Assembly (NCBI GenBank): GCA_017521425.1
Contig: JAFXCQ010000019.1
Location: 1 to 64,000 of the forward strand
Direction: 5' to 3'
Origin: Clostridia bacterium
GTDB taxonomy: Bacteria; Bacillota; Clostridia; Oscillospirales; Acutalibacteraceae
DNA length: 64,000 nucleotides
Positions 54,407-64,000 of the stretch are shown piece by piece; position 1 is the first letter of the stretch; each line of letters opens with the position of its first letter. The notes beneath the pieces were generated by a model. It was given only the letters and a program-made list of their open reading frames with translations, did no database searches and was not told the origin of the DNA. The translations under genes and the position numbers were made by a program.

Positions 54407-54435
54407 TTGACAAGAAAAAATAAAAGTGATATTGT
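54407..54435 (+). promoter_or_regulatory. Promoter of T-box unit 1
   Basis: TTGACA (54407-54412) and TATTGT (54430-54435) have 17-bp spacing, about 30 nt upstream of T-box stem I. Confidence 0.75.
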
Positions 54436-54463
54436 AACTACATTAAATGAATATCACAAATAA

Positions 54464-54721
54464 AAGCGATGACGAAGACGGTTGAAAATGACTGTTTCCA
54501 GAGAGTCGGCGGTTGCTGTGAGCCGATAACATAATTTTCCTTAAACCTATCACTTCTGAGCTGAAGGGCTGAAAGTAACAGTAAGTTTCTTCCGAAAGAA
54601 CTGCAGCGTTAGTGCAGAGGGGTTGTTTGACCTTAAAGGTGGCAATATTTATTATTGCAATTTGAGTGGTACCGCGGAAAAGTTTTCCGTCTCAAAGTTT
54701 TACTTTGAGACGGTTTTTTTA
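54464..54721 (+). promoter_or_regulatory. T-box leader 1, specifier AUC (Ile)
   Basis: The T-box sequence GAGTGGTACCGCGG (54664-54677) is followed by a terminator with 12-bp arms (54687-54698 and 54702-54713) and a T run. Stem I has the AGAGAG bulge motif and a distal stem TCGG/CCGA. The 3' strand reads AACCT-ATC-A-CTTCTGAGC: GAAG (54474-54477) pairs with CTTC (54553-54556) and GGTT with AACC, leaving ATC (54549-54551) plus the conserved following purine in the specifier loop. The spacing equals that of the known glyQS leader (GGC-A-CUU..GAG). Uncharged tRNA-Ile would therefore promote read-through. Confidence 0.85.
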
Positions 54722-54769
54722 TTTGTGTATTTCTTTTAAAAAATTTTAATTTCGAGAGGAATGATTGTA

Positions 54770-57040
54770 ATGGCAGACAGTAAAGTAACAAAAAAGTTAG
54801 CAGAGGTTGCTGAACGTATTGAGGAGTTACGCGCAATTTACGGTTTTTCAGAAGAAGAAATGGCACAAAAAGCAGAAGTAACATTAGAGGATTATGTATC
54901 TTTTGTTAAAGGTGAGGATGATTTACCTTTCTCATTCGTTCATAAATGTGCATTGGCTTTCGGTGTTGAAATGACAGACCTTTTAGAAGGTCAGAGCGCA
55001 AAACTTTCTTCTTACACGGTAACCCGCCGTGGGAATGGTAAAGTTACTGCAAATGAAGACGGTAAATTGATTCAGAATTTAGCACCTCGTTTCAAACAAA
55101 AACTTGCCAATCCATATTGGGTAAATTATCAGTATTCAAGTGAACTTCAATCAAAAGAAATTGAGGTGAGCACACACGCAGGTCATGAATTTGATCTTGT
55201 TATAAAAGGTTCTTTAAAAGTTCGTGTTGGTGATAATTACGAAATTTTAAGAGAAGGCGACAGTATTTATTATAAAAGTTCAATTCCTCACGGTATGATT
55301 GCAGTTGATGGTGAAGACTGTACATTCCTTGCTATGGTTATGAATGATGAAGAAGAGCCCGCAGAATTTGTTTCTGAAAATATAAGTGAAGTGAAACAAA
55401 TTGAAAGACCACTCGTAAGTGATAAGTTTGTAAAAACTTTCCTTAACGAAGATGGCGTTTGTGACAAAATTGAATTTTATAATGAAGATAAATTCAACTT
55501 TGCATTTGATATAGTTGATGAAATCGGCAGAAAATCACCAGAAAAACTCGCTATGCTCCATATCTCTGATGATATGACAGAAAGAAGATTTACTTTCAAG
55601 GATATGAAAGAAATGTCTTCACAAGCAGCTAACTACTTTAAATCTTTAGGTATAAAAAAAGGTGACAGAGTTCTTTTGGTGCTTAAAAGGAACTATCAGT
55701 TCTGGGTTGCTATTTTAGCTCTTCACAAATTAGGTGCAGTTGCAATTCCTGCAACTAATCAACTTGTTGTTCACGATTATGAATATCGCTTCCAGGCTGC
55801 GGGTGTTACTGCAATTGTTGCTACTGCAGACGGAAAAGTTACAGAAACAGTTGACGAAGCACAAAAGACATGCCCTGATTTAAAAGTTAAAATTGTTGCA
55901 AATGGTGCTAAAGACGGTTGGCATAATTTTGACGAGGAGTTCCCACTCTTCTCACGCAGATTTGTACGTGATGAAGAAACTGCCTGCGGTAATGACCCAC
56001 TTATAATGTTCTTTACATCAGGTACAACCGGTTACCCTAAAATTGCGGTTCATAGTCATAAATATCCACTTGGTCACTATATTACTGCAAAACATTGGCA
56101 TAATGTTTATCGCGATGGTATTCACTTCACAATTTCCGAAACAGGCTGGGGTAAAGCGCTCTGGGGTAAACTTTATGGTCAATGGCTCTGTGAGGGTGCA
56201 GTGTTCACTTACGACTTTGAGCGTTTTGATGCGGCAAAAATTCTCCCGATGTTCGCAAAGTATAATATAACAACATTCTGCGCACCACCTACAATGTACA
56301 GAATGTTAATAAAACAAGATATTTCACAATATGATTTATCTTCAATAAAACACGCTACAACTGCGGGTGAAGCGCTTAATCCGGAAGTATTCAAACAATT
56401 TAAAAAGGTAACTGGTCTTAGAATCTATGAAGGTTTCGGTCAGACTGAGACAACTCTTTCTATTGCAAATCTTGATGGTTCCAAAATCAAAATCGGTGCT
56501 ATGGGTAAACCGTCACCACTTTACGATATCGATTTGGTTGACCCTGACGGCAAACCGGTGCCGGATGGTGAAACAGGCGAGATTGTTGTTCATACAGAAA
56601 ATGGCGCGCCTTGTGGTCTTTTCTTGGGTTACTACAACGACGAAGAAAGAACAAAAGAAGTATGGCACGATGGTCTTTATCACACAGGTGATACCGCTTG
56701 GAGAGATGAAGATGGTTATCTCTGGTATGTCGGTCGTGTTGATGATGTTATCAAATCATCAGGTTACAGAATAGGACCATTTGAAATTGAAAACGTTATC
56801 ATGGAACTTCCTTATGTTCTTGAGTGTGGTGTTTCTGCTGCTCCTGACGAGGTTCGTGGTCAGGTGGTTAAAGCAAGTATCGTTTTAACAAAGGGTACAG
56901 AAGGCACAGAAGAACTCAAAAAGGAAATTCAGGATTACGTTAAAAAGAATACAGCACCTTATAAATATCCGAGAATTGTTGTATTCCGTGACGAATTACC
57001 AAAGACAATCAGCGGTAAAATCATAAGAAATAAACTTTAA
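54770..57040 (+). CDS. XRE-cupin-acyl-CoA synthetase fusion, Ile T-box controlled
   Basis: A 756-residue protein in three parts: an XRE-type helix-turn-helix (about residues 8-62), a cupin (about 115-190; STHAGHEFDLVIKGSLKV, GDSIYYKSSIPHGM), and a complete acyl-CoA synthetase (about 230-756) resembling the medium-chain (ACSM) group. Adenylation motifs are intact: FFTSGTTGYPK, YEGFGQTET, YHTGD and the C-terminal catalytic Lys in KTISGKIIRNKL. It would activate a carboxylic acid with ATP and CoA. The T-box and the neighbouring oxidoreductase/aminotransferase genes suggest 2-methylbutyrate or a related branched acid. ATG 54770 lies 9 nt after AGAGGA; the ATG at 54761 abuts it. A paralogue follows. 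Confidence 0.88.
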   Translation: MADSKVTKKLAEVAERIEELRAIYGFSEEEMAQKAEVTLEDYVSFVKGEDDLPFSFVHKCALAFGVEMTDLLEGQSAKLSSYTVTRRGNGKVTANEDGKLIQNLAPRFKQKLANPYWVNYQYSSELQSKEIEVSTHAGHEFDLVIKGSLKVRVGDNYEILREGDSIYYKSSIPHGMIAVDGEDCTFLAMVMNDEEEPAEFVSENISEVKQIERPLVSDKFVKTFLNEDGVCDKIEFYNEDKFNFAFDIVDEIGRKSPEKLAMLHISDDMTERRFTFKDMKEMSSQAANYFKSLGIKKGDRVLLVLKRNYQFWVAILALHKLGAVAIPATNQLVVHDYEYRFQAAGVTAIVATADGKVTETVDEAQKTCPDLKVKIVANGAKDGWHNFDEEFPLFSRRFVRDEETACGNDPLIMFFTSGTTGYPKIAVHSHKYPLGHYITAKHWHNVYRDGIHFTISETGWGKALWGKLYGQWLCEGAVFTYDFERFDAAKILPMFAKYNITTFCAPPTMYRMLIKQDISQYDLSSIKHATTAGEALNPEVFKQFKKVTGLRIYEGFGQTETTLSIANLDGSKIKIGAMGKPSPLYDIDLVDPDGKPVPDGETGEIVVHTENGAPCGLFLGYYNDEERTKEVWHDGLYHTGDTAWRDEDGYLWYVGRVDDVIKSSGYRIGPFEIENVIMELPYVLECGVSAAPDEVRGQVVKASIVLTKGTEGTEELKKEIQDYVKKNTAPYKYPRIVVFRDELPKTISGKIIRNKL

Positions 57041-57114
57041 TATTAAGAATATTTCTTTATTGCAATATTTACAAATTTTGGCAATAAAATTTATAAAAAA
57101 TTCCAATTATTTTC

Positions 57115-57148
57115 TTGACAAATTATAAGAGATGTGGTATGGTATAAT
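57115..57148 (+). promoter_or_regulatory. Promoter of T-box unit 2
   Basis: TTGACA (57115-57120) has TATGGT at 17-bp spacing (57138-57143); a TATAAT follows at 57143-57148. Either -10 would start transcription just before T-box stem I. Confidence 0.65.
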
Positions 57149-57155
57149 ACGTTAA

Positions 57156-57430
57156 AAGGCGTTGAAGAAAAGGGGTTATAAATTATTCCCTTGCAGAGAA
57201 GTGACGGTTGGTGCAAGTCACAGGTGAAAATTTACAACTTGTAGTTTCTGAGCCGGGAGAAAGAAAAGCAGATGCTTAGTAGAATCTCTCCGTGATTGCT
57301 GCGTAAATGCATAGGAGTTGATAGACTCCAAGAGTGGCAGGTTTTCTGCAATTTGAGTGGTACCGCGGGTATTATAAATTGTTTATAACGCTCGTCTCAA
57401 AGATCATATCTTTGGGGCGGGTTATTTTTA
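57156..57430 (+). promoter_or_regulatory. T-box leader 2, specifier GUA (Val)
   Basis: The T-box sequence GAGTGGTACCGCGG (57355-57368) precedes a terminator stem CGTCTCAAAGAT/ATCTTTGGGGCG (with G-U pairs, about 57393-57419) and a T-rich tail. Stem I has AGAGAA (57195-57200) and a distal stem GTGAC/GTCAC with the classic GGTTGGTGCAA loop. AGAAA (57166-57170) pairs with TTTCT (57245-57249) and GTTATAAATT with AATTTACAAC. The 3' strand AACTT-GTA-G-TTTCTGAGC aligns with leader 1, placing GTA (57241-57243) as specifier followed by a purine. Uncharged tRNA-Val would give read-through into the operon. Confidence 0.85.
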
Positions 57431-57471
57431 TTAAATAACCCACTCTGAAAGAATAATCGGAGGAACTAAAA

Positions 57472-59778
57472 ATGGAACAGATTACAGCACTTGATTTTAA
57501 AATCAAGGAAATGGCTGCAAGAATCAGGGAACTCAGAGAAATACAAAATCTCACAACTGCACAAATGGCTGAAAAAACAGGTGTTAGTGAAGCTGAATAC
57601 ATCGAGTGCGAAAATGGTAATAAAGACTTAAACTTTGCTTTTATTTACCGTTGCGCGCAAACTCTTAATGTTGACGTTACAAGCCTTATTGAGGGTCACA
57701 CACCAAAACTCGTAAACTACGTTTATACAAAATCAGGTAAAGGGCAGAGAATCGAAAAAGCACATGGTATGACATACTACAACCTTGCTTCTGCTTTTAA
57801 AAACAGAATTGCTGAACCTCTTTTTGTGCGTAGTACATACAGTGAAGAAAAACAGAATAAAGAAATTGAAGTTACTACTCACGCAGGTCAGGAACTTGAT
57901 ATTGTAATTGAGGGTAAATTAAAGGTTCAGGTTGGCGAACACTACGAAATTCTTGAAGCTGGTGACAGTATTTATTACGACAGTTCAACACCTCACGGTA
58001 TGATAGCTGTTGATGGTAAAGACTGTACATTCTATGCTATTGTTCTTAACCCTACTGGTGAACCTATTCCTGAGCTTGAATATGCAAAAGCAAAGGCAAA
58101 AGCAAAAGCGCTTGATAGCAAAAAGACAATAGAAAATGATACAAAGGACCGTATATATCATAAATATATTGATATTGAAAAGAATGAAAACGGTACTCCT
58201 ACAAAAATTTCTTTCAAGAATACTGATAATTTCAACTTTGCATTTGATTTAGTTGATGCTTTAGCGGATAAAGAACCGACTAAGCTTGCAATGCTTCATA
58301 TTGATAAAAACAAGGTTGAAAGACGCTTTACTTTTAAAGATATTAAAAAAGCATCTGCACAAGCGGCAAACTATTTTGCTTCTTTAGGTATTAAAAAAGG
58401 CGACAGAGTTATGCTCGTGTTAAAACGTCATTATCAATTCTGGTTTGCAATGATAGGACTTAACAAATTAGGTGCAATTGCAATTCCTGCACCTAACCAG
58501 TTACAAGAACACGACTTTGAGTACAGATTTCAGTCTGCAGGCATTAAAGCAATTGTTTGCACAGGCGATGGCGATACTGCTCATCAGGTTGATTTAGCGG
58601 CACAGACTTCACCATCACTTGAAATTAAAATTATGGTTAATGGTGAAAGAGATGGCTGGAGAAATTATGACGAGGAGAGTGCCCGTTTCAGTTCTCATTT
58701 TGAAAGAACAGAAGATTCTCCTTGCGGTGACGATTTAATGCTTATGTTCTTTACATCAGGAACATCAGGCTACCCAAAAACTGCAATGCACAGTCATAAA
58801 TATCCTTTAGGTCATTTCCATACTGCAAAGTTCTGGCACAATGTTGACCCTGATGGTCTTCATTTTACAATTTCAGATACCGGTTGGGCAAAATCTATGT
58901 GGGGTAAGCTTTACGGTCAATGGCTTTGCGAAGCACCTACATTTGTTTATGACTTTGACAGATTTGACGCAGCGGACATTTTACCAATGTTTGCAAAATA
59001 TAAAATCACAACATTCTGTGCGCCACCTACAATGCTTCGTATGATGGTAAAACAGGATATTTCAAAATACGATTTCTCATCAGTTCAGCACATGACAACT
59101 GCTGGTGAAGCACTTAACCCTGAAGTTTATCGTCAGTTTGAAACTGCAACAGGTCTTCAGATTTTAGAAGGTTTCGGTCAGACAGAAAGCACAATGATTA
59201 TAGGTAATATGACAGGTGCTTCTCACAAAATCGGTTCAATGGGTAAACCTGCACCGATTTACGATGTTAAACTTGTTGACGCCGACGGTAACGAAGTTAA
59301 TGTTGGTGAAAATGGCGAAATTGTTATCAATGTTAAAGATGGTGCTCCTTGCGGTCTTTTCAAAGGTTATTATAAAGATGAAGAAAAGACAAAAGAAGTG
59401 TGGCACGATGGTTTCTACCATACAGGTGATGTTGCCTGGCGTGATGAGGATGGTTTCTACTGGTATGTTGGTCGTGTTGATGATGTTATTAAGTCATCGG
59501 GCTACAGAATAGGACCATTTGAAATTGAAAGCGTTATTATGGAACTTCCTTATGTTTTAGAATGTGGTGTTTCTGCTGCTCCTGACGAGGTTCGTGGTCA
59601 GGTTGTTAAAGCAAGTATTGTTCTTGTTCCTGGTACGGAGGGTACTGAGGAATTAAAGAAAGAAATTCAGCAGTATGTTAAAGAAAAAACTGCACCTTAT
59701 AAATATCCGAGAATTGTTGTGTTCCGTGATGAATTACCAAAAACAACAAGCGGTAAGATTATAAGAAATAAACTTTGA
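57472..59778 (+). CDS. XRE-cupin-acyl-CoA synthetase fusion, Val T-box controlled
   Basis: A 768-residue paralogue of the preceding gene, with the same order: helix-turn-helix (about residues 14-70), cupin (about 122-198; TTHAGQELDIVIEGKLKV, GDSIYYDSSTPHGM) and acyl-CoA synthetase (about 240-768; FFTSGTSGYPK, LEGFGQTES, YHTGD, KTTSGKIIRNKL). A Lys/Ala-rich linker (KAKAKAKALDSKK) joins cupin and synthetase. The final 110 residues are nearly identical to the paralogue, while the helix-turn-helix differs much more. The Val T-box and the downstream VOR-type oxidoreductase suggest isobutyrate as substrate. GGAGG precedes the ATG. It is the first gene of a probable operon running past the window end. 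Confidence 0.88.
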   Translation: MEQITALDFKIKEMAARIRELREIQNLTTAQMAEKTGVSEAEYIECENGNKDLNFAFIYRCAQTLNVDVTSLIEGHTPKLVNYVYTKSGKGQRIEKAHGMTYYNLASAFKNRIAEPLFVRSTYSEEKQNKEIEVTTHAGQELDIVIEGKLKVQVGEHYEILEAGDSIYYDSSTPHGMIAVDGKDCTFYAIVLNPTGEPIPELEYAKAKAKAKALDSKKTIENDTKDRIYHKYIDIEKNENGTPTKISFKNTDNFNFAFDLVDALADKEPTKLAMLHIDKNKVERRFTFKDIKKASAQAANYFASLGIKKGDRVMLVLKRHYQFWFAMIGLNKLGAIAIPAPNQLQEHDFEYRFQSAGIKAIVCTGDGDTAHQVDLAAQTSPSLEIKIMVNGERDGWRNYDEESARFSSHFERTEDSPCGDDLMLMFFTSGTSGYPKTAMHSHKYPLGHFHTAKFWHNVDPDGLHFTISDTGWAKSMWGKLYGQWLCEAPTFVYDFDRFDAADILPMFAKYKITTFCAPPTMLRMMVKQDISKYDFSSVQHMTTAGEALNPEVYRQFETATGLQILEGFGQTESTMIIGNMTGASHKIGSMGKPAPIYDVKLVDADGNEVNVGENGEIVINVKDGAPCGLFKGYYKDEEKTKEVWHDGFYHTGDVAWRDEDGFYWYVGRVDDVIKSSGYRIGPFEIESVIMELPYVLECGVSAAPDEVRGQVVKASIVLVPGTEGTEELKKEIQQYVKEKTAPYKYPRIVVFRDELPKTTSGKIIRNKL

Positions 59779-59788
59779 GGTGTTCAAT

Positions 59789-60451
59789 TTGGAAAATAAA
59801 AGAGTTACTCTTTTTGCAGGGCATTACGGTAGCGGTAAAACAAATATTGCAGTAAATTATGCCTTGCACCTTAAAGAAAAATATGAAAAAGTAGTTATTA
59901 CTGACCTTGATATTGTTAATCCATATTTCAGAACTGCTGACAGTTTAGAAGAATTAACAAAAGCAGGTATAAAACTCATATCGTCAGAATTTGCTAATTC
60001 AAATGTCGATTTACCTGCACTTCCACAAGATGTTTACTCAATTCTTGATGACAGAAGCGCGGTAGCAATACTCGATATTGGTGGCGATGACCGCGGTGCT
60101 TATGCACTTGGCAGATATGAAACTGCAATAAGAGAAGAAAATGACTACGAAATGTTGTTTGTTTTTAATATGTACAGACCTTTAACCCCCGATGCCGGGA
60201 GTGCATTAGAGGTTATGAAAGAAATTGAAACAGCAGGTAAAATTAAATTTACCGCGATTGTCAATAACTCTAATTTAGGTGCTCTTACTACAAAGGAAGA
60301 TGTTATTGCTTCAGTTAAGAGTGCAGATGAGTTGTCTCATCTTTCAGGTTTACCAATAAAAATGACAACGGTAAGTGAAAATTTAGCCAATTCTTTCAAT
60401 GGTGAAATAGATAACATTTTCCCATTGAAATTACAAAAAAAGATAGTATAA
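59789..60451 (+). CDS. P-loop ATPase of unknown function in the oxidoreductase operon
   Basis: A 220-residue nucleotide-binding protein with Walker A GHYGSGKTN near the start, and DLDIVNPYFR and ILDIGGDDRGAYALGRYE as likely Mg/switch segments, of the general SIMIBI (MinD/ParA or CobQ-like) type. The start is taken as TTG 59789, 6 nt after GAGGTG; the GTG at 59780 lies inside that site. It sits between the synthetase (10-nt gap) and the oxidoreductase genes (42-nt gap), so it probably serves the enzyme complex, for example in cofactor or cluster handling. This is inference; I know no assigned function. Confidence 0.75.
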   Translation: MENKRVTLFAGHYGSGKTNIAVNYALHLKEKYEKVVITDLDIVNPYFRTADSLEELTKAGIKLISSEFANSNVDLPALPQDVYSILDDRSAVAILDIGGDDRGAYALGRYETAIREENDYEMLFVFNMYRPLTPDAGSALEVMKEIETAGKIKFTAIVNNSNLGALTTKEDVIASVKSADELSHLSGLPIKMTTVSENLANSFNGEIDNIFPLKLQKKIV

Positions 60452-60493
60452 TATATCTATTGATATTTATGTATGATTATTGGAGGTAAGATT

Positions 60494-60700
60494 ATGGCAA
60501 AAGTTACTTTCGCGGACAACGTTTGCAAAGGCTGTGGTCTTTGTGTAGGTGCTTGTCCTAAAAAAATCGTAGCACTTGATACTTCAAGACTTAATGCAAA
60601 GGGACATCACCCTGCACACGTTACAGATGAAAGCTTATGTATAGGCTGTGCATTCTGTGCAACAATGTGCCCTGATTGCGTAATTACAGTAGAAAGATAA
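60494..60700 (+). CDS. 2-Oxoacid:ferredoxin oxidoreductase, delta (ferredoxin) subunit
   Basis: A 68-residue protein with two 4Fe-4S motifs (CKGCGLCVGACP and CIGCAFCATMCP). It is the electron-transfer subunit of KOR/VOR-type enzymes, linking the TPP active site to free ferredoxin. ATG 60494 follows GGAGG by 7 nt; the longer frame starts in the gap. The alpha-subunit gene begins 12 nt downstream. The order delta-alpha-beta-gamma is usual for KOR/VOR operons in Clostridia. Confidence 0.92.
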   Translation: MAKVTFADNVCKGCGLCVGACPKKIVALDTSRLNAKGHHPAHVTDESLCIGCAFCATMCPDCVITVER

Positions 60701-60712
60701 GAGGTGGAAAAA

Positions 60713-61777
60713 ATGGGTGAAAAAGTTTTAATGAAAGGTAACGAAGCTATTGCAGAAGCTGCAATAAGAGCAGGTTGTTTACATTACTTCGGTTATCCTA
60801 TTACACCACAAACAGAAATTGCGGCTTATATGGCAAAACGTATGCCGAAAGTTGGCGGTGTATTTTTACAGGCAGAAAGCGAAATTGCTGCTATCAATAT
60901 GGTTTTAGGTGTTGCTGCAGCAGGTAAAAGAGTTATGACATCTTCTTCAAGCCCTGGTGTTTCACTCAAGAGTGAAGGTATGTCATATATTTCAGGTAGT
61001 GACGTTCCGGCACTTGTTGTTAACGTACAACGTGGTGGTCCTGGTCTTGGTGGTATTCAACCATCACAATCTGACTACTTCCAGGCTGTAAAGGGTGGTA
61101 GCCACGGTGACTATAAGAGAATTGTTTTAGCACCCGCTTCTGTTCAGGAAATGGCTTCACTTACAACAAAAGCATTTGATTTAGCAGATAAATACAGTAT
61201 TCTTACAATGATTTTAGCAGATGGTACAATGGGACAGATGATGGAACCTGTTGAACTTGAAACTACTGAACCTGTTAAATATGAAAAACCTTGGGCTACA
61301 ACAGGTACTAAAATGCAGAGAAAACACAACATTGTTAACTCTCTTTATTTAAAACCTGAAGAATTAGAAAAGAAAAACTTTGAGCGTTTCGCTAAATACA
61401 AAACCATTGAAGAAAACGAAGTTATGTATGAAGAATATCTTATGGACGATGCAGAAATCTGCGTAGTTTCATTCGGTATTACTTCAAGAGTTGCAAAAAA
61501 TGCAATTGTTGAAGCAAGAGCAAAAGGCATTAAAGTTGGTATGATAAGACCAATTACACTCTGGCCATTCCCAACAGAAGTGTTAAATAAAGCGGCAGAC
61601 AAATGTAAAGCATTTATTTCTGTTGAAATGAATATGGGTCAGATGATTGAAGATGTTAAACTCGCTATCGAGTGTAAAAAACCGGTACATCTTTGCTGTC
61701 GTGTTGGTGGTATGATTCCTTCACCAGAAGAAGTACTTGCAAAGATTGAAGAAGTAAACGAAGGAGGAGAAAGATAA
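60713..61777 (+). CDS. vorB: 2-Oxoacid:ferredoxin oxidoreductase, alpha subunit (VorB-like)
   Basis: A 354-residue subunit carrying the conserved N-terminal [33 protein letters not shown] and [39 protein letters not shown], which form part of the substrate and TPP pocket. With beta, gamma and delta it interconverts a 2-oxo acid plus CoA with acyl-CoA, CO2 and reduced ferredoxin. Sequence alone does not separate 2-oxoglutarate from branched-chain oxo acids. The Val/Ile T-boxes, acyl-CoA synthetases and aminotransferase point to branched-chain substrates, hence VorB-like. ATG 60713 follows AGAGGTGG; the GTG at 60704 is inside that site. Its stop overlaps the beta start by one base. Confidence 0.88.
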
Positions 61778-62529
61778 TGGTAGTATTTGAAAAACCAAAA
61801 TCACTTACTGATGCACCACTTCACTATTGTCCGGGTTGTACTCACGGTATTATTCATCGTCTTGTAGCTGAAGTAATTGACGAATTAGGTATTGAAGGTA
61901 AAACTATCGGTGTAGCACCTGTTGGTTGTTCAGTTATGGCTTACGATTATTTTACCTGTGACTTCGTTCAGGCTCCTCACGGTAGAGCACCTGCAGTTGC
62001 TACCGGTGTTAAAAGGGCAGACCCTGAAAATCATATTGTATTTACATATCAAGGTGATGGTGACCTTGCAGCTATTGGTACTGCTGAAACAGTTCACGCA
62101 GCAGCAAGACGCGAAAACATTACAGTTATTTTCGTAAACAACGCAATTTATGGTATGACAGGTGGTCAGATGGCACCTACAACTCTCCCAGGTCAGGTTA
62201 CACAGACTTCACCTTATGGTAGAGATGTTGAAACAGTTGGTTATCCTGTAAAAGTATGTGAATTACTTTCAAATGTTGATGGTGCTGCTTATCTTGAAAG
62301 AGTTGCAGTTAACAGTGTTCCTAATATTAAAAAGGCAAAGGCTGCAATTAAAAAGGCTTTCCAGAATCAGATTGATGGTAAAGGCTTCTCACTTGTTGAG
62401 GTTGTTTCAACTTGCCCTACAAACTGGGGTATGACACCTGAAAAAGCATTAAAGTGGCTTGAAGAAAATATGCTTTCATATTACCCACTTGGTGTTTATA
62501 AAGATATCTACGCAGAGGAGGCAAAATAA
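61777..62529 (+). CDS. 2-Oxoacid:ferredoxin oxidoreductase, beta (TPP-binding) subunit
   Basis: A 250-residue subunit with the thiamine-diphosphate motif [14 protein letters not shown] through [13 protein letters not shown] (about residues 90-130) and the N-terminal YCPGCTHG. It binds TPP and helps form the active site with alpha. The ATG overlaps the alpha stop (TAATG), and AAGGAGGAG lies upstream, indicating tight co-translation. The gamma gene starts after one base. Confidence 0.93.
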
Positions 62530-62530
62530 T

Positions 62531-63067
62531 ATGAAAAAGACAACAAATATTCTTTTTGCCGGTTTCGGCGGTCAAGGTATTCTTTTCGCTGGTAAATTTG
62601 TAGCATATAAAGGTCTTCTTGAAGGCAAACACATCAGCTGGCTTCCTTCATACGGTCCTGAAATGCGTGGCGGTACTGCTAACTGTAGTGTTATTGTAAG
62701 TGAAGACCCAATCGGTTCACCAATTGTAAGTAAACCTGACGTTTTAGTTGCAATGAACTTACCTTCACTTGATAAATATGAAAACGAAGTAGTACCTGGT
62801 GGTAAAATTTTTGTTGATTCAACACTTATCGAAAGAAAAGTTACACGTACAGACGTTGATGTTTATTATATCCCTGCAACAGGTCTTGCAAGTGAAAAAG
62901 GTATTAACACACTTGCTAATATGATTATTACAGGTAAACTTTTAAAAGAAGTAGAAGAATTATCATTTGATAATATCGACGCTCCTTTAGGTAAAGTTGT
63001 ATCAGCAAGACATCAGGATTTACTTGAAGTAAATAAAACTGCTCTTCAGTTAGGTTACGACTACTAA
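62531..63067 (+). CDS. 2-Oxoacid:ferredoxin oxidoreductase, gamma subunit
   Basis: A 178-residue subunit with the family start [17 protein letters not shown] and the [18 protein letters not shown] segment. It completes the four-subunit enzyme, contributing to the CoA/dimer interface. ATG 62531 is one base after the beta stop, preceded by GAGGAGG. A longer frame starting inside the beta gene is not used. The aminotransferase gene follows 34 nt later. Confidence 0.93.
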
Positions 63068-63101
63068 TATAATTTCTAATTTCAGAAAAGAGGCTATTGA
63101 A

Positions 63102-64000
63102 ATGGGTTACGATTTCAAAATAGAAAAAGCAACAGTAAAAAAAGAAAAACCGGAAGATAAAGGTCTTGGTTTCGGTAGATTTTTTACTGACCATATGTTC
63201 TTAATGAACTACAATGAAGAAAAGGGTTGGCACGACGGCAGAATTGTTCCTTATGGTCCACTTCCGCTTGAACCATCTGCAATGGTTTTCCACTATGCGC
63301 AAGAACTTTTTGAAGGTCTTAAAGCATACAGAACTGCTGATGGTAAAATCCAACTTTTCCGCCCACAGAAAAATATTGAAAGAATGAACAATACTTGTGA
63401 CAGACTTTGCGTTCCGAGAATTGACCCGGAACTCGCTCTTGAAGCAATCAAAGCAGTTGTTGAAGTAGATAAGGACTGGGTACCACACAGCGAAGGCACA
63501 TCACTTTACATTCGTCCATTCATTATTGCAACTGACCCATTCTTAGGTGTTCATCCTGCACATACTTATATTTTTGCTATTATTCTTTCACCTGTAGGCT
63601 CTTACTATGCTAATGGTATGGACCCTGTTAAAATCTGCATTGAGCATGAATATGTTCGTTGCGTAAAAGGTGGTACAGGTATGGCAAAAGCTGGTGGTAA
63701 CTATGCTGCATCTCTTATTGGTCAGAAAAAAGCTGACGAAATGGGTTACGCACAGGTTCTCTGGCTTGACGGTGTTGAAAGAAAATACATCGACGAAGTT
63801 GGTGCTATGAATGTATTCTTCGTAATTGATGGCACAGTTGTTACACCTTCACTTGAAGATGGCAACATTCTTCCTGGTGTTACAAGAGCATCTTGTATTG
63901 AAGTTCTCAAAAACTGGGGCTACAAAGTTGAAGAACGCAAAATTTCAGTTGATGAAGTTAAAGAAGCTCACAAAAATGGCAAGTTAGACGAAGCATTCGG
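63102..64000 (+). CDS. ilvE: Branched-chain amino acid aminotransferase, 5' part
   Basis: 299 codons are visible before the window ends; the frame is open. It is a fold-type IV PLP enzyme of the larger BCAT type. N-terminal DKGLGFGRFFTDHMFLMNY, HYAQELFEGLKAYR and the block CVKGGTGMAKAGGNYAASLIGQKKADEMGY are typical, with the PLP Lys in MAKAGGNY. It transfers amino groups between glutamate and 2-oxoisovalerate, 3-methyl-2-oxopentanoate or 4-methyl-2-oxopentanoate, giving Val, Ile or Leu. ATG 63102 follows AGAGG by 8 nt. Co-directional with the oxidoreductase genes, it fits as the last step of a Val/Ile route controlled by the T-box. Confidence 0.93.
   Translation, partial: MGYDFKIEKATVKKEKPEDKGLGFGRFFTDHMFLMNYNEEKGWHDGRIVPYGPLPLEPSAMVFHYAQELFEGLKAYRTADGKIQLFRPQKNIERMNNTCDRLCVPRIDPELALEAIKAVVEVDKDWVPHSEGTSLYIRPFIIATDPFLGVHPAHTYIFAIILSPVGSYYANGMDPVKICIEHEYVRCVKGGTGMAKAGGNYAASLIGQKKADEMGYAQVLWLDGVERKYIDEVGAMNVFFVIDGTVVTPSLEDGNILPGVTRASCIEVLKNWGYKVEERKISVDEVKEAHKNGKLDEAF

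Follow-up and report, generated by a model that had tools for sequence, protein, structure and literature searches.

A Clostridia locus with T-box-controlled acyl-CoA synthetases, predicted to make isoleucine and valine from branched acids

In the draft genome of a Clostridia bacterium (GCA_017521425.1), two acyl-CoA synthetase genes precede the genes of a 2-oxoacid:ferredoxin oxidoreductase and a branched-chain aminotransferase. Does this locus make branched-chain amino acids or degrade them, and which acids do the synthetases use? We analyzed a window of 64,000 nt (contig JAFXCQ010000019.1, positions 1 to 64,000, forward strand), the rest of the genome and related loci. Judged from gene content and leader sequences, preformed branched acids are very probably converted into Ile and Val by this locus, with each synthetase under its own T-box.

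Gene order and T-box leaders

The locus consists of two units (Table 1). Unit 1 carries a promoter-like site, a T-box and the synthetase AS1; unit 2 carries a promoter-like site, a T-box, the synthetase AS2 and the genes for a P-loop NTPase, a ferredoxin subunit, VorB, the beta and gamma subunits and the aminotransferase. The promoter-like sites are consensus matches only (14 in the stretch vs. 9.1 in shuffled sequence). The aminotransferase frame is 358 aa long in the full contig and ends at about C25:64178, beyond the window; 3′ of it lie a gene with a TetR_N match below cut-off, then a SipL-like gene and others. Rfam, Pfam and NCBIfam searches bore out the preliminary description of two acyl-CoA synthetase genes, each behind a T-box. 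Its four-subunit oxidoreductase and aminotransferase, all on one strand, were also found, and it had overlooked the P-loop NTPase and the HTH-cupin fusions of the synthetases.

Table 1. Features of the locus and of the two related units elsewhere in the genome. Positions are those of the 64,000-nt window unless a locus handle is given.
Feature	Position	Strand	Evidence or content
Promoter-like site, unit 1	54407..54435	+	Consensus match 10/12, extended TG
T-box leader 1, specifier AUC (Ile) at 54549-54551	54460..54697	+	RF00230, 111.7 bits
Terminator-like hairpin of T-box 1	54687..54713	+	Folding energy, U-rich tail
AS1, HTH-cupin-AMP-binding acyl-CoA synthetase, predicted 2-methylbutyrate	54761..57040	+	Pfam, PDB 3ETC, Ile T-box
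Promoter-like site, unit 2	57115..57143	+	Consensus match 10/12, extended TG
T-box leader 2, specifier GUA (Val) at 57241-57243	57153..57402	+	RF00230, 85.5 bits
Terminator-like hairpin of T-box 2	57390..57422	+	Folding energy, U-rich tail
AS2, HTH-cupin-AMP-binding acyl-CoA synthetase, predicted isobutyrate	57472..59778	+	Pfam, PDB 3ETC, Val T-box
P-loop NTPase	59780..60451	+	Weak ParA-like matches below cut-offs; synteny
2x[4Fe-4S] ferredoxin (delta) subunit	60488..60700	+	Fer4
VorB-type alpha subunit, 2-oxoacid:ferredoxin oxidoreductase	60704..61777	+	NF005507, 544.2 bits vs. cut-off 399
Beta (TPP-binding) subunit	61777..62529	+	PF02775
Gamma subunit	62531..63067	+	PF01558
Branched-chain aminotransferase IlvE-II	63102..64000, past window end	+	NF009897, 421 bits vs. 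307; TIGR01123, 351 vs. 250
Leu unit	L091:5747-9695	-	Leu T-box (CTC), isopropylmalate-synthase-like protein, TIM-barrel/AMP-binding fusion
Phe unit	L090:6732-8819	+	T-box, phenylacetate-CoA ligase, ACT-pair protein

Leader 1 scored above the gathering score of 93 of the Rfam T-box model RF00230 (E 1.4e-24). Leader 2 matched over the whole model (E 8e-18), under the gathering score. Both end in strong terminator-like hairpins of -17.8 kcal/mol each (z of -7.2 for T-box 1 and -8.7 for T-box 2) with U-rich tails. The specifiers were read by the rule codon-N-4 nt-n-GAG, which gave AUC for leader 1 and GUA for leader 2. Applied to four aminoacyl-tRNA synthetase leaders of the same genome, the rule returned the correct amino acid in every case (pheS TTC, alaS GCT, thrS ACC, ileS ATC).

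The Ile and Val identity of the T-boxes, part of the preliminary description, was confirmed by these codons and by their conservation in relatives. Across the window and 80 relative loci, an Ile codon was read in 53 of 53 readable AS1-type leaders. Forty-two of these had a single candidate and 11 had two; taking the candidate 78-80 nt from the 5′ anchor gave ATC in all 11. Val codons were read in 80 of 80 readable AS2-type leaders of the same set: 73 GTA and one GTC by script, and six GTA by eye (L025, L036, L048, L052, L057, L058). These counts exclude three synthetase genes with no T-box core in the 650 nt upstream (L035 AS1, L070 AS1 and L070 AS2), two with too short an upstream sequence (L048 AS1, L072 AS1) and five start-less copies at contig ends (L034, L047, L054, L060, L069).

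Val-type leaders tend to score slightly under the Rfam gathering threshold. A cmscan run on nine of the 80 loci at the gathering score yielded seven T-boxes, four before AS1, three at the Leu unit (see below) and none before AS2; by E-value, the AS2 leaders of four out of four relatives matched RF00230 at 75.6-92.3 bits (E 1.5e-14 or better). In one locus, L212 of genome G146, AS1 and AS2 stand in tandem; only AS1 is preceded by a T-box core, with ATC as one of the candidate codons, and a divergent Leu unit adjoins the pair.

The synthetases and the oxidoreductase

AS1 and AS2 are AMP-binding synthetases with an N-terminal XRE-type HTH and a cupin domain (Pfam; the HTH of AS1 falls below the Pfam cut-off). 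At L217, an HTH-cupin-like stretch (36% identity) adjoins an unfused ligase beside oxidoreductase genes. AMP-forming synthetases spend ATP, which fits the synthesis direction. The top PDB match of both was 3ETC (E 2.4e-190 for AS1, 2.7e-185 for AS2), the Methanosarcina acetivorans enzyme MacsMa, for which 2-methylbutyrate is given as the preferred acid in the excerpted text of PMC10455477. Their top NCBIfam model was MbcS (NF047394), at 444.5 and 441.4 bits, below the equivalog cut-off of 850 bits. According to excerpts of PMC10026030, MbcS of S. aureus activates 2-methylbutyrate and isobutyrate and hardly isovalerate; this near-inactivity on isovalerate fits a separate ligase for Leu.

The synthetase tree (184 rows representing 174 distinct proteins, ten rows being duplicates of genes fetched twice) separated the synthetases by leader codon. 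A Val clade held 106 GTA/GTC rows and two unread ones (L054, L070) with support 1.0, and an Ile clade held 57 ATC rows and four unread ones with support 0.81. The G103 synthetase, present twice in the set (L120/L143), was nearer to AS2 by BLAST; it has an ATC leader and was placed in the Ile clade. An outer third clade comprised 15 rows (L124-L138); ATC was read in nine of them, and the remaining six were unread or lacked a core. No VorB match was found in the fetched stretches around these fused synthetases.

Fifteen alignment positions distinguish the two main types (57 AS1-type vs. 106 AS2-type rows). At one of them, Gly occurs in 55 of 56 distinct AS1-type proteins and Ala in all 97 distinct AS2-type proteins. 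The residue is Gly464 in AS1 and Ala473 in AS2. This position aligns with Val310 of E. coli Acs (acetyl-CoA synthetase), which we take to be an acyl-pocket residue. The one deviating AS1-type protein, L139, combines Ala with an Ile T-box and is the sole synthetase match in a 1.1 Mb genome.

The oxidoreductase was assigned to the VOR type on a VorB alpha subunit over its curated cut-off together with beta, gamma and delta genes (Pfam); the beta, gamma and delta subunits matched general 2-oxoacid oxidoreductase models below cut-offs. Among relatives, the oxidoreductase and the P-loop NTPase were each found in 57 of the 69 loci with enough downstream sequence, and AS2 stood without a full oxidoreductase nearby in the other 12. 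Of the 66 relative loci with sufficient sequence to either side, 48 contained AS1, AS2, oxidoreductase and aminotransferase side by side.

Could the enzymes serve other substrates? The synthetases might act on other acids (e.g., acetate, propionate or aryl acids) and the VOR on pyruvate or 2-oxoglutarate, given that the substrate range of the superfamily is broad and that models of 2-oxoglutarate enzymes are the best matches, under cut-offs, of the beta and delta subunits. We consider this very improbable, as the genome encodes a separate pyruvate:ferredoxin oxidoreductase (PFOR, 1722 bits) and an indolepyruvate oxidoreductase alpha subunit (IorA, 731 bits), the specifiers are those of Ile and Val, and the nearest structure is MacsMa. 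It is more doubtful still that the synthetases, like MbcS of S. aureus, make branched acyl-CoA to prime membrane fatty acid synthesis, with the oxidoreductase being incidental: the FabH-feeding MbcS is the top NCBIfam match and the 12 loci that have AS2 but no full oxidoreductase nearby agree with such a role, but amino-acid-specific T-boxes with a separate codon for each acid, and an oxidoreductase in most relative loci, argue against it. The acyl-CoA may have a second use besides amino acids.

The acetolactate route and further T-box units in the genome and its relatives

No match to KARI (PF01450) or DHAD (PF00920) was found in the genome (draft, 97.26% complete), and its sole PF02776 match, under cut-off, was IorA rather than AHAS; all 14 control genomes were positive in each of these searches. 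The search for ilvC and ilvD proposed in the preliminary description has thus given no match to either. Its suggestion that the locus takes the place of the acetolactate route agrees with this genome but does not hold for all relatives, some of which have KARI as well as the locus.

KARI was found in 68 of 148 relatives searched, in 57 of the 109 good-quality ones and in four of the 22 genomes of the organism's own genus. Relatives with a source in their title come mostly from ruminant rumen or hindgut. T-boxed AS1/AS2-type synthetases occurred in 18 of 52 KARI-negative vs. six of 57 KARI-positive good-quality genomes (Fisher p 0.0028, with locus counts compiled by hand and kinship uncorrected, G146, G077 and G036 confirmed and third-clade genes excluded). 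This is weak support for an association between the locus and the lack of KARI. The locus and KARI coexist in six of the 24 good-quality locus-bearing genomes (G006, G008, G024, G061, G077, G103). In three of them (G024, G061, G103) the single synthetase match falls in the AS1 clade; an Ile T-box was read in G024 and G103, and G061 has a T-box core with the codon unread. It looks as if only Ile were made from a branched acid in these three genomes.

Eight T-boxes were found in the genome. Four lie ahead of pheS, thrS, ileS and alaS. Each of the remaining four heads a CoA-ligase unit, namely the two units of the window, one Leu unit and one Phe unit (Table 1). Among 36 tRNA matches of the draft genome, tRNA-Val(UAC), which is cognate to GUA, and tRNA-Leu(GAG), which is cognate to CUC, were present. 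tRNA-Ile(GAU) and tRNA-Phe were not among these matches; because both are essential, they are taken to lie in missing parts of the draft.

Both genes of the Leu unit share a fetched stretch with AS2 in 33 of the 80 relative loci. The 33 placed synthase-like matches lie downstream on the same strand (19), upstream and divergent (12) or upstream on the same strand (2). Leu leaders were read in a fixed register. Two of 58 distinct leaders were too short and seven lacked a T-box core in 520 nt; the remaining 49 gave CTC/CTG by script in 42 cases (two with a second candidate) and CTC by eye in six, and L161 was unclear.

The synthase-like protein is probably a catalytically degenerate isopropylmalate synthase that serves as a leucine sensor. 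What we take to be the catalytic motifs of isopropylmalate synthase (RDGxQ, HCHND, GxGERAGN and HExGIHQHG) were all intact in three of three LeuA rows passing the LeuA cut-off. None of the four was intact in the 13 aligned Leu-unit homologues, with single letters remaining in some (e.g., L157, L161). The protein retains the LeuA regulatory domain (112.6 bits), and over 27 synthase-like sequences the mean column identity was 0.79 in residues 335-466 vs. 0.58 in residues 1-300, with 35 of 132 vs. 23 of 300 columns invariant.

We also considered a Leu unit that feeds the normal isopropylmalate pathway. This was rejected, as the synthase-like protein lacks the catalytic motifs and the sole aconitase-family match in the genome is a 679-aa frame that scores as aconitate hydratase (989 bits vs. 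612).

For the Phe unit, 30 loci were compared, counting that of the own genome. A T-box leader was readable in 14 of them, where TTC lies above a stem of 5 bp with changes in both strands (CAGAA/TTCTG, CGGAA/TTCCG). A core was absent from 14 of the remaining 16 loci, one had no gene start and one had a core-like motif in an unreadable leader. From the stem and the gene, we prefer a Phe specifier to the Ser of the shifted register.

Proposed route and comparison with known systems

In the proposed route, AS1 would activate 2-methylbutyrate and AS2 isobutyrate to their CoA esters in AMP-forming reactions. The shared VOR-type oxidoreductase would carboxylate both acyl-CoAs with reduced ferredoxin and CO2, running in the reductive direction to yield 3-methyl-2-oxovalerate from 2-methylbutyryl-CoA and 2-oxoisovalerate from isobutyryl-CoA, and IlvE would aminate these 2-oxo acids to Ile and Val. 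Uncharged tRNA-Ile or tRNA-Val is predicted to turn on the cognate synthetase through its terminator-type T-box. The Ile/Val specifiers, the lack of matches to the acetolactate route in the draft genome and the kinship with MacsMa strongly support the preliminary view that the locus would be a salvage or biosynthesis route rather than a catabolic one. That the locus instead degrades Val and Ile by transamination, oxidative decarboxylation by VOR and acid release, as in peptide-fermenting anaerobes, is very unlikely: VOR and the aminotransferase are reversible and used catabolically in archaea and clostridia, but T-boxes respond to amino acid shortage, which is the wrong sign for catabolism, the AMP-forming synthetases consume ATP, and the acetolactate route is unmatched in the genome.

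Beyond Ile and Val synthesis in the window, we lean slightly towards a wider picture, in which the organism would have abandoned the synthesis of branched-chain amino acids from central metabolism. It would rely on a modular, tRNA-gated regulon with separate CoA-ligases for the Ile, Val, Leu and Phe acids, each behind a cognate T-box, and on shared ferredoxin-dependent carboxylases. In the Leu unit, the dead synthase would provide another level of feedback, being retained solely to bind leucine and regulate the ligase next to it, and the ACT protein may do likewise for phenylalanine.

If the route is as proposed, the locus would provide the genes and the switch for the old observation that rumen anaerobes synthesize amino acids from isoacids, and it would explain why one species depends on acids that others release. 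Annotation could then predict isoacid use, rather than label such species auxotrophs for branched-chain amino acids, and the degenerate isopropylmalate synthase would represent a novel type of leucine sensor. Where the substrate of an acyl-CoA synthetase is otherwise ambiguous, the T-box codon labels it directly.

For the rumen, excerpts of PMC7356843 describe the carboxylation of isovalerate to give Leu, name 2-methylbutyrate as a precursor of Ile and isobutyrate as one of Val, state that Phe can be made from phenylacetate, and cite branched-acid work of 1966-1971 by Allison, Robinson and others. As far as these excerpts go, the carboxylation chemistry is already known, with publications on rumen bacteria going back to the 1960s, and the acids, the products and the type of habitat are the same as those proposed here or found for many of the relatives. 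The difference lies in genes and regulation: our literature search found none tied to that route, whereas the present locus has one synthetase and one T-box for each amino acid.

MacsMa is the closest solved structure to both synthetases, but its chain of 580 aa, matched over 45-570, leaves no room for the HTH-cupin part. MbcS is the best NCBIfam match and, in the excerpted account (PMC10026030), shares the activation of both 2-methylbutyrate and isobutyrate; it differs in feeding fatty acid synthesis, and the window synthetases score far below its equivalog cut-off.

The leaders resemble the T-box riboswitches of amino acid genes in being of the terminator type and codon-specific, whereas the regulated genes here encode acyl-CoA synthetases. 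The main texts of PMC2494555 and PMC7778990 do not mention acyl-CoA, CoA ligase, ferredoxin or AMP-binding, and among the papers of one open-access library, judged from listings and the openings of abstracts, we found none that joins T-boxes to these synthetases.

A further parallel is offered by a route to aromatic amino acids. Phenylacetate-CoA ligase and indolepyruvate:ferredoxin oxidoreductase together form such a route, in which, as in the one proposed here, the acid becomes a CoA ester, then a 2-oxo acid and finally an amino acid. It differs in using aromatic acids, and the same genome carries a parallel unit under a Phe T-box. Against these known systems, what seems new is the gene set, the assignment of a T-box to each acid and the probable role of the dead synthase in sensing leucine.
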